A DNA stretch of 34,048 nucleotides from contig JAGWZI010000007.1 in NCBI GenBank assembly GCA_018968925.1, positions 1 through 34,048 on the forward strand, written 5' to 3'. Both the position numbers and the translations under genes were made by a program. Numbering within the stretch: the first letter of the stretch is position 1; each line of letters starts with the position of its first letter. Below the pieces are notes generated by a model. It was not told where the DNA came from, made no database searches, and was given only the letters and a program-made list of their open reading frames with translations. This DNA is from Patescibacteria group bacterium. GTDB taxonomy: Bacteria > Patescibacteriota > Minisyncoccia > Phycocordibacterales > GWA1-40-21. Shown one piece after another: positions 31,945 to 34,048 of this stretch.

Positions 31945-32427
31945 ATGCGGATCCTCGCCATCGATCCGGGATACGAGCGCATGGGCGTCGCGGTGCTCGA
32001 GAAAAATTCCGGCAAAGAGAACCTGATTTTTTCCGAATGCTTCCGCACATCGGCGAAATTGCCGCATGCGGAGCGTCTCGTGCTTGTCGGCCGTGAAGTC
32101 CGTGCGCTCGTGAAAAAATACCGGCCGGACGCGGTCGCGCTCGAAACCTTGTTCTTTGAAAAGAACCAGAAGACCGCCATGCATGTCGCCGAGGCGCGGG
32201 GCGTCCTGCTTTTCATCGCGGCGGAAGCGGGTTTGCCGGCCGCCGAATTCACGCCGATGGAGATCAAGGTGGCGGTGACCGGCTACGGCAAAAGCGACAA
32301 GTGGCAAGTGACCAGCATGGTAGAGCGTCTCGTGAACATAAAAAAAGCCATCAAATATGATGACGAATACGACGCGATCGCGGTCGGCCTCACGTATTTT
32401 GCCACTCACCACTCCGCCGGATCGTAA
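31945..32427 (+). CDS. ruvC: Holliday junction resolvase RuvC
   Basis: A 160-residue endonuclease that cuts four-way DNA junctions during recombination. The acidic catalytic set is visible: Asp7 in LAIDPGYERMG, Glu in ALETLFFEKN near residue 69, and the Asp residues in KYDDEYDAIAVGLTYF near the C-terminus. The KNQKTAMHVAEARGVLL helix and the ITG-like block (VAVTGYGKSDKWQV) are also family features. It is in an operon with tyrS and overlaps the convergent acidic gene by 22 bases. No ruvA or ruvB is in view. Confidence 0.96.
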   Translation: MRILAIDPGYERMGVAVLEKNSGKENLIFSECFRTSAKLPHAERLVLVGREVRALVKKYRPDAVALETLFFEKNQKTAMHVAEARGVLLFIAAEAGLPAAEFTPMEIKVAVTGYGKSDKWQVTSMVERLVNIKKAIKYDDEYDAIAVGLTYFATHHSAGS

Positions 32428-32654
32428 TCGAGCTCGTCCTCGTCTTCGCTGGTTTCTGTTTCTTCCTCGCCGGGCGTTTCGTCCGATCCGGATTCCTCAA
32501 AGGCATCAAGCACACCGTCGGATATGACGCCACCTTCCTTGTGCTCTTCCTCCTCTTCCTGCGGCTCCGTCGCCTGCGGTGCTTCCGCCGGTTTCGTTTC
32601 CTTGGCTTTCTTTTCCGGCTTGGGAGCGGTTTTCGGTTTCGGTTTAGTTGTCAT
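32406..32654 (-). CDS. Small low-complexity acidic protein, unknown function
   Basis: An 82-residue frame with a Lys/Pro-rich basic start (MTTKPKPKTAPKPEKKAKET) and a strongly acidic second half (EPQEEEEEHKEGG, then ESGSDETPGEEETETSEDED) ending LDYDPAEW. It is probably disordered. It overlaps the 3' end of ruvC by 22 bases on the opposite strand. The bias toward sensible codons and the intact ATG support a real gene, but there is no clear promoter or Shine-Dalgarno sequence. The low complexity makes the frame hard to judge. It could be a histone- or ribosome-associated tail protein; there is no evidence for either. Confidence 0.6.
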   Translation of the reverse strand: MTTKPKPKTAPKPEKKAKETKPAEAPQATEPQEEEEEHKEGGVISDGVLDAFEESGSDETPGEEETETSEDEDELDYDPAEW

Positions 32655-32711: not shown

Positions 32712-32720
32712 TGTGGATAA
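32712..32720 (-). promoter_or_regulatory. DnaA-box sequence outside the origin
   Basis: An exact DnaA box (TTATCCACA on the minus strand), 10 bases before the long inverted repeat at 32730-32791. Confidence 0.4.
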
Positions 32721-32729
32721 CTGCCGGGG

Positions 32730-32791
32730 CGGCGGCAAGTCATTTTTGCGAGGCGGGGCAAGGTCTGGTCAGCAAAAATGACTTGCCGCCG
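32730..32791. repeat. Perfect 20-bp inverted repeat with 22-nt loop
   Basis: The arm 32730-32749 (beginning CGGCGGCAAGTC) is exactly complementary to 32772-32791 (ending GACTTGCCGCCG). The spacer is GC-rich and unrelated. It lies 3' of yebC without a T-run on either strand, so it is not a simple intrinsic terminator. It could form a very stable RNA or DNA hairpin. Confidence 0.85.
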
Positions 32792-32812
32792 TCTTGACCC
32801 GCTTGCTATGAA

Positions 32813-33343
32813 CTATTCCGCGTTCGTATAGACGTCCTGAACGTCCTCATTTTCCTCAAGATCGCCGATAAGCTTTTCGAGCGCCGGTGTGTCGGCTTCG
32901 GAGACGGGCACGGTCGTTTTCGGCATCCAGCCTTCCGGCGTCTTCTCGAACGCCCACGAGGCGGAACCGGACGCGGCGAGCGACGTGCCGTTCTCGGAAA
33001 GGATATGCTTGATCTCGGCGGCGGCTTTGTTGCGGTTCGTGGTGAGTACTTCGATGATGAGCGCCACGCCGCCCGGACCGTATGCTTCATAGGTCGTTTC
33101 TTCCATCTGTTCCGCTCCTGCGCCCGACGCTTTCTTGATCGCGCGGTCGATATTGTCGGCCGGCATGTTCACTTCTTTCGCTTTTTCTATCGCGGCGCGC
33201 AAGGACGGCGATGACATATTGCCATTCGCTTTTTTCGCTTCGATCTGGAGCATCTTCGCCATCTTGCCGAAGATCTTGCTCTTCTCGGCATCGGTTTTCG
33301 CCTTCAGCCGTTTTATTTTCGAGAATTTATTGTGTCCGGACAT
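32813..33343 (-). CDS. yebC: YebC/PmpR/TACO1-family translation factor, compact form
   Basis: A 176-residue protein of the YebC family, known for a role in translation of proline-rich stretches and formerly described as a transcription regulator. The N-terminal domain has GHNKFSKIKRLKAKTDAEKS, then AAIEKAKEVNMPADNIDRAI. The YEAYGPGGVALIIEVLTTNR and SWAFEKTPEG blocks and the C-terminal DLEENEDVQDVYTNAE are all present. About 60 residues usually found between the last two blocks are absent, so this is a shortened version (the family is about 240). A TATAAT ends 10 nt before the ATG. Confidence 0.93.
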   Translation of the reverse strand: MSGHNKFSKIKRLKAKTDAEKSKIFGKMAKMLQIEAKKANGNMSSPSLRAAIEKAKEVNMPADNIDRAIKKASGAGAEQMEETTYEAYGPGGVALIIEVLTTNRNKAAAEIKHILSENGTSLAASGSASWAFEKTPEGWMPKTTVPVSEADTPALEKLIGDLEENEDVQDVYTNAE

Positions 33344-33556: not shown

Positions 33557-33895
33557 ATGAAAATAACTTTCAGCAAGCCGAAACACGAATCTCTAGTAAA
33601 CGACCATGATGCTCTTTGCAAAAAATTCAATAAGAAAGGGCAATCAATTGCCGATAATATTATCCTTACCATGGATGCTCTTATCGCCGCAGATTCTCTG
33701 GCTGATCTTCCACCATCGTTTCGCCCGCATCCTTTAAAGGGCGAATACAAAGGATGTTTTGCCGCCGATGTTACCAATACGCATAGAGTTATTTTTCAAC
33801 CCAATCACGACAAAGATCCAAATTTTAGAATCGATAATCCCAAGACCATTAAATCAATATTGATCCTCGAAATTTTTGAAGACTATCACAAATAA
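33557..33895 (+). CDS. HigB/RelE-family toxin (mRNA interferase)
   Basis: A 112-residue protein with the HigB-type pattern: an N-terminal helix pair (ESLVNDHDALCKKFNKKGQS), then DLPPSFRPHPLKGEYKGCFA, VTNTHRVIFQPNH and a last strand/helix ILILEIFEDYHK. The conserved HPLKG, RVIF and DYHK segments are typical of ribosome-dependent RelE/HigB toxins. It precedes its antitoxin by 2 nt, in the toxin-first order of higBA. The gene is markedly AT-rich compared with the chromosome around it, suggesting acquisition. No Shine-Dalgarno sequence is evident. Confidence 0.88.
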   Translation: MKITFSKPKHESLVNDHDALCKKFNKKGQSIADNIILTMDALIAADSLADLPPSFRPHPLKGEYKGCFAADVTNTHRVIFQPNHDKDPNFRIDNPKTIKSILILEIFEDYHK

Positions 33896-33897
33896 AA

Positions 33898-34048
33898 ATG
33901 GGATATCAACCGAACAAAATCATACATCCAGGACAGTTCATTTCTAAAGTCTTAGAAAGGGAGGGAATGACACAGAAAAATCTAAGCGATCGTACTGGAC
34001 TCACCGAAAAGCATCTCAGCCAAATCATTAACGGAGAAGCTTCAATTA
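33898..34048 (+). CDS. HigA-family antitoxin (XRE helix-turn-helix), 5' part
   Basis: Fifty codons are visible before the window ends, so the 3' part is missing. The protein begins MGYQPNKIIHPGQFISKVLE and continues into a Cro/CI-type helix-turn-helix (MTQKNLSDRTGLTEKHLSQI, then INGEASI). The HPG start and the HTH match HigA antitoxins, which bind and neutralise HigB and repress the operon. It starts 2 nt after the toxin stop. It is AT-rich like the toxin. Confidence 0.9.
   Translation, partial: MGYQPNKIIHPGQFISKVLEREGMTQKNLSDRTGLTEKHLSQIINGEASI

Follow-up and report, generated by a model that had tools for sequence, protein, structure and literature searches.

What is the long, perfect inverted repeat that lies just beyond the end of yebC in this genome? 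The stretch of DNA analysed here (34,048 nt; the window) is contig C7 of a draft Patescibacteria genome of 579 kb in 31 contigs, 92.9% complete (G000). A first-pass annotation had described two exact 20-bp arms, 22 nt apart, between the end of yebC and the gene for an acidic protein. The arms are where it placed them, 100% complementary over 20 nt each with a spacing of 22 nt, and the two genes flank them, both on the reverse strand. The features of the locus, in window coordinates, are as follows.

32406 to 32654, reverse strand: small acidic-protein gene (an ORF), the next gene after the hairpin and about 75 nt from it
32725 to 32729, forward strand: 5' half of an outer extension in the predicted fold (five pairs, G-T pairs among them; partner 32792-32796)
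32730 to 32749, forward strand: 5' arm of the perfect 20-bp inverted repeat, whose inner 16 nt (32734-32749) form the family stem
32734 to 32787, forward strand: family unit of 54 nt (16-bp stem plus loop), matched by covariance model R2 with an E value of 1.5e-17
32750 to 32771, forward strand: apical loop GAGGCGGGGCAAGGTCTGGTCA, 22 nt, near-invariant across 14 copies in G000 and two in a second genome, G159
32772 to 32791, forward strand: 3' arm of the inverted repeat, whose inner 16 nt (32772-32787) form the family stem
32792 to 32796, forward strand: 3' half of the outer extension, from the predicted fold and pairing
32813 to 33343, reverse strand: yebC (TACO1/YebC family), with about 20 nt between its stop codon and the hairpin

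The acidic-protein gene has short matches between ruvC and yebC in two congeners. At the far end of the window (33557-34047), two adjacent small genes resemble, from their sequences, a toxin of the HigB/RelE type and a helix-turn-helix antitoxin of the HigA type; the latter is truncated by the end of the window.

A DnaA-type 9-mer, TGTGGATAA, lies at 32712-32720, and the first-pass annotation was right that a perfect box adjoins the repeat, 9 nt separating the two. It is one of four exact boxes (TTATCCACA or its complement) in the 34-kb window (5809, 25175, 32712 and 33453). A connection between box and hairpin does not hold up. Only the window copy, among 16 copies of the hairpin described below, has an exact box within 90 nt (the copy at L018 has a box with one mismatch), and two congeners without the hairpin (L073, L074) keep a box of this kind, TGTGGACAA, in the corresponding spacer. 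We therefore rejected the link.

Within the window, the repeat at 32730-32791 is the sole pair of perfect arms of at least 15 nt with a spacing within 200 nt. A DNA search of the genome, using 121 bases around the repeat as query, returned 16 rows corresponding to 14 distinct places, and a covariance model built from ten of the copies recovered exactly those 14 places along with 12 reverse-strand echoes. Each copy stands alone, and together they are spread over ten contigs. Of the eight perfect-arm hairpins of at least 17 bp in a 208.6-kb genome sample, six belong to this family, which puts the window repeat well beyond chance, as had been proposed from its length and exactness alone. The search for further copies, whose absence would have spoken against the repeat, thus shows it to be a real feature, and it cannot be a lone structure or a lone terminator: there are 14 copies, and a terminator scan does not call the 20-bp hairpin. 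An assembly artefact is highly unlikely, since although the draft is in 31 contigs and one copy (L019) sits at a contig end, the 14 copies have differing arms and flanks on ten contigs and two more occur in the independently obtained G159.

We aligned all 14 copies on the loop. It is 22 nt long in 11 copies and 24 nt in three (L019-L021), the longer form having an extra T on the left and an extra A on the right, equivalent to one added U/A pair of the inner helix. Across the 13 loops that are 22 nt long, 11 from G000 and two from G159, pairwise identity averages 0.91. The inner stem, TTTTTGC/GCAAAAA, is also near-invariant, with a single letter accounting for 93-100% of the copies at stem positions 1-6 counted from the loop. 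Pairwise identity then falls from 1.0 near the loop to about 0.4-0.6 from position 7 outward, where a consensus, GGCAARTCA, is nonetheless retained. Pairing does not fall with it. Counting position by position across all 14 copies, with one bulged base removed in L015 and in L018, standard pairs occupy 223 of the 224 cells at positions 1-16. At positions 17 and 18, pairing is seen in only ten and nine of the 14 copies, respectively, and identity is about 0.35. This loss of pairing defines the family unit as 16 bp, loop and 16 bp, or 54-56 nt.

The stem covaries. In the ten gap-free copies of the first alignment (A2, the basis of model R1; 10 of 14 copies, those with indels left out), 14 pairs are changed on both sides, compared to 7.4 in shuffles. 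None of 500 shuffles scored as high, and alignments slid out of register gave 5-6. The signal holds after the G159 copies are added (A3, the basis of model R2; 11 of 16 copies, again without those containing indels). The hairpin family is real, multi-copy and covarying. Wobble pairs favour one strand: positions 1-16 contain seven G-T cells and no A-C cells (two-sided P = 0.016), an excess that points to the strand with the G-rich loop as the one that folds. One caveat is that this test depends on the handling of indels, the count becoming 5 versus 0 (P = 0.06) if the two bulged copies are cut short. When the count is carried outward to the first true mismatch it is 9 versus 6, because the asymmetry does not reach the outer arms. 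Within the loop, a short GGC/GUC helix probably forms above a GA/A internal loop. GG doublets are present in the loop of every copy; as the copies are related, these are weak evidence for a G-quadruplex.

Beyond the 16-bp unit, each copy has arms of its own. These outer arms are locus-specific, in that the flanks of one copy do not pair with those of others, and they pair within their own copy: the best outer stems average 6.7 bp, versus 3.3 bp with shuffled partners, and none of 2000 shuffles gave a mean as high. The test covers 13 of the 14 copies, L019 being at a contig end, and a shuffled copy that drew its own partner was assigned a fixed 4 bp. In L009 and L015, a short internal loop (such as CGA / GAGAT) is followed by a second stem, which reaches 16 bp in L015. 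In L011, L012, L017, L018 and L021, the stem continues, or nearly so, into GC stems flanked by A/T that resemble the ordinary terminators of this genome; the outer stem of L012, AAAACCGCTC..GAGCGGTTTTTTT, can be compared to the ordinary terminator AAAAACCGCTCCGA[tctcgg]TCGGAGCGGTTTTT. Terminator-like outer stems occur in at least six of the 13 testable copies. The simplest picture is that a small unit sits on the tip of local hairpins. In G159, however, the outer stems of the two copies are related and, as judged by eye, differ in a compensatory manner, so that in this genome the element may include the outer stem.

A second repeated structure was noticed among the terminators. It consists of GGGCGGCCGC, a loop of 3-4 nt and GCGGCCGCCC, and is found in G000 at L083 (11892-11932), L084 (16856-16886) and L088 (16184-16212), as well as at two gene ends (L050 and L063) of a genus-mate, G001.

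Where do the copies lie relative to genes? Neighbouring genes were assigned from ORF tables and Pfam; several were named by reading their sequences, and we take these to encode RNase Y, FtsX, RuvA, FtsH, RpoD, ParB, RelA/SpoT, IF2 and GyrA. For 13 of the 14 copies, a plausible gene 3' end lies no more than about 35 nt away; the exception, L018, is separated by about 85 nt from a convergent gene and by 20 nt from a small ORF of doubtful status. Convergent gene pairs flank five copies (L011, L012, L015, L016, L017). For another five (L009, L010, L014, L020, L021), the sole gene that they follow is encoded on the strand carrying the G-rich loop. For the window copy and L013, that gene is on the opposite strand, as is probably the case for L018 and L019 too. 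The hairpin has no fixed orientation relative to genes. Of the copies in G159, one is between the genes for an ABC-transporter ATPase and permease, likely inside an operon, and the other is just before prfB. At the latter locus (L091), an ORF (1435-2457) reads through the reverse strand of the hairpin into the prfB frame. The element could here extend the N-terminus of the prfB product, in the way that Rickettsia palindromic elements (RPEs) act inside genes. We do not claim a coding role of this kind for the reverse strand, because L013 has a stop codon in that frame (by eye).

To see how widely the family occurs, we ran about 1,300 genome-searches over overlapping sets of genomes. True copies outside G000 were found only in G159 (two copies, matched by model R1 with E values of 2e-14 and 5e-11), a genome of a different family in the same order. 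There is no copy in five genus-mates, and among 60 relatives including G000, true copies are confined to G000 itself; model hits in G001 and G004 are plain terminators with unrelated loops. Allowing up to three mismatches, the loop pattern is present in G000 and G159 only among 397 genomes of the order. Model R2 found, among 383 genomes of the class, G000 and a single hairpin with an unrelated loop (G499); the pattern found, among 379 genomes of the phylum, G000 and a single armless match (G987); and 41 genomes around G159 yielded G159 and one hairpin whose loop is unrelated (G015). The weak model hits in G499 and G015 were discarded on account of these loops. The two (L116, 1450-1625, in G499; L134, 1460-1600, in G015) are very long multi-tier hairpins with TTTTTG/CAAAAA inner stems; possibly they represent other families of like kind, or else chance hits of the model.

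Farther afield, the exact loop pattern occurs in eight stretches of a named genome collection, none with arms adjoining the loop. A viral collection has three such stretches, or eight (including the same three) with a looser pattern, all of them armless. These armless stretches, in named genomes and viruses alike, are chance matches. Named phages and plasmids gave no match to the hairpin. In relatives, the spacers downstream of yebC, rny and ftsH contain other sequence or short-loop terminators. The order ruvC, acidic gene, yebC is kept without the hairpin in two congeners, and ruvC-yebC order is kept, again without it, in a third relative.

Does the family correspond to a known system? The window has no match in Rfam, and in the copy-bearing loci searched (seven of the 16 copies), only sub-threshold microRNA and sRNA hits overlap the copies. 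The literature searched, which lay outside subscription journals, describes no such hairpin family. Apparently, then, a covarying, multi-copy hairpin family of this type is undescribed in that literature and in Rfam.

The first-pass annotation had offered a REP-like element, a MITE remnant and a small structured RNA among its candidates. All three point in the right direction, the first two because this is a dispersed palindromic family of 14 copies and the third because of the strong covariation in the stem; the family itself, its conserved loop and its placement at gene ends were absent from that account. Like REP elements (repetitive extragenic palindromes), the hairpins are short, extragenic, palindromic, present in many copies and mostly near gene 3' ends. 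REP copies are defined, in the available text of PMC12306157, as highly similar sequences of 14-40 nt with a common motif. In the present family, by contrast, it is the loop that is conserved while the stem varies but covaries, the unit measures 54-56 nt, and G000 has no RAYT/Y1 transposase. The family also resembles RPEs and MITE-like hairpins (Correia/NEMIS, RUP, ERIC) in being dispersed, non-autonomous, patchy and built as a single long stem-loop. MITEs, according to PMC2229807, carry terminal repeats whose sequence is fixed and, in many cases, a TA duplication; here, the terminal stem pairs but varies, and neither fixed terminal repeats nor a clear TA duplication are seen. RPEs are 105-146 bp, compared to 54-56 nt for the hairpin unit, and a search of the named genome collection with the loop pattern yielded nothing with arms that would relate the two.

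Hairpins of mitochondrial genomes (sponge repetitive hairpin elements, RHEs, and fungal double-hairpin elements) offer another likeness, being tiny, mobile, without a known enzyme and found in compact genomes. According to PMC2800124, sponge RHEs have conserved stems and variable loops, unlike introns and other structured RNAs; here the pattern is the reverse, that of a structured RNA, with the loop fixed and the stem free. TIGR arrays (TIGR-Tas; phage and parasitic bacteria) are likewise reported to be small RNA elements with constant loops in reduced bacteria, though they form tandem arrays, whereas the hairpin copies are single and dispersed over ten contigs.

We favour, with moderate confidence, a non-autonomous, REP/RPE-like mobile element of 54-56 nt that is recognised through its loop and sits at the tips of 3'-end hairpins. 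The 16-bp stem, free in sequence save for the inner TTTTTGC/GCAAAAA, would serve to display the near-invariant loop of 22-24 nt; a trans-acting factor would recognise the folded strand by its loop and inner stem, and the remaining stem positions would need only to pair. The unit would insert into terminator tips, where it may be tolerated because the outer stem still folds and ends the transcript, and its effect on transcript ends would be neutral or mildly useful. The patchy presence, the many unrelated sites and the lack of a fixed orientation fit a mobile element, and a loop more strongly conserved than its stem is consistent with a folded strand being recognised. In favour of mobility are the 14 copies in a 579-kb genome, with none in five genus-mates and two in a genome of another family. 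Against it, no mobilising enzyme was found among those sought: the RAYT Y1_Tnp domain (PF01797) has no match in G000 (92.9% complete; controls match in 5 of 14), and the TnpB domain is absent from G000 and 11 relatives. No clear target-site duplication is seen either; the GA that flanks the unit on each side in L009, L014 and L015, and in no other copy, is a weak sign. Orthologous spacers of congeners hold unrelated sequence or ordinary terminators, rather than the empty sites of near relatives. Conservation of the loop above the stem also counts against mobility, as it is the pattern of a host-functional RNA and the opposite of that in typical mobile palindromes. A more specific form of the idea, which we advance tentatively, is a previously undescribed kind of minimal mobile element that, recognised by its invariant loop, would travel in the form of a folded single strand and insert into terminator tips, so that its own stem and that of the host terminator fuse into one hairpin.

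The alternative to be weighed most carefully is that the hairpin is an immobile RNA motif of 3'-UTRs or terminators that serves the host, its copies having spread by duplication and been retained by selection. The invariant loop would then be bound by a protein or RNA of the host that controls termination or mRNA decay of 14 transcripts, those of ftsH, ruvA, rny, rpoD, parB, a relA/spoT-like gene and others. The degree to which the loop is conserved above the stem, the stem covariation, the strand bias of wobble pairs, the placement at 3' ends and the conservation of the loop between members of different families (G000 and G159) all accord with such a role. However, the motif is missing from all five genus-mates and nearly all other genomes searched; its G-rich strand is sense to the sole adjacent gene end in about five copies and antisense in at least two (the window copy and L013); the adjoining genes have no obvious common theme; and one G159 copy is inside a likely operon. 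A purely host-functional 3'-end motif is thus possible but doubtful, and the two fits noted above, to mobility and to recognition of a folded strand, lead us to prefer the mobile, structure-recognised element.

Fold-back copying could instead have made the arms. On this model, insertion of a short conserved core (TTTTTGC-loop-GCAAAAA) is followed by folding back of its 3' end, which primes copying of the flanking host DNA, so that every pair of arms consists of fresh host sequence and an inverted copy of it. This would explain how perfect arms of unrelated sequence come to lie beside a constant loop. We consider it unlikely, however, given that stem similarity fades gradually with no sharp edge, the outer part of the 16-bp stem keeping its GGCAARTCA consensus (identity 0.4-0.6), and that G-T pairs mark stems that have mutated, not fresh copies.

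Could the copies simply be intrinsic terminators that share a loop by descent? They follow stop codons, and at least six of the 13 testable copies, L012 among them, have GC outer stems flanked by A/T that are like the genome's terminators. L012 and L017 in fact have the GC-rich hairpin followed by a U-run that defines an intrinsic terminator; the window copy does not. On neither strand does the latter have a U-run (two and three T residues in the 8 nt on its two sides), just as the first-pass annotation had it, and the terminator scan does not call its 20-bp hairpin. Moreover, ordinary terminators in the 208.6-kb sample have loops mostly of 3-8 nt and no large loop in common, whereas this family has a large invariant loop on a stem of at least 16 bp. 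These data make the ordinary-terminator explanation quite improbable. The statement that the repeat is not a standard terminator consequently applies to the window copy and needs amending for the family, in view of the copies that extend into terminator-like stems.

Very improbable, too, is a DNA-level site, that is, a double-stranded palindrome or cruciform bound by a protein and used in site-specific recombination or in organising the chromosome, its arms being maintained as perfect matches through template-switch repair. Quasi-palindrome correction is an established mechanism that can keep perfect palindromes perfect, and the inconsistent orientation relative to genes would suit such a site. 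Yet most of the stem sequence is not conserved, which makes recognition of double-stranded DNA unlikely, and the asymmetry of G-T versus A-C favours one folded strand.

Dispersed palindromes of bacteria normally have the stem, or the whole sequence, in common. A fixed loop on a stem that is free in sequence and always paired points instead to a trans-acting factor that reads the loop of the folded strand. Fourteen copies at the ends of core genes in about 0.58 Mb amount to a noticeable load, and in so compact a genome the tips of terminators would be a safe harbour for insertions. If mobility is shown, the mobile, structure-recognised element favoured here would provide a simple system for asking how hairpins without an enzyme of their own spread.
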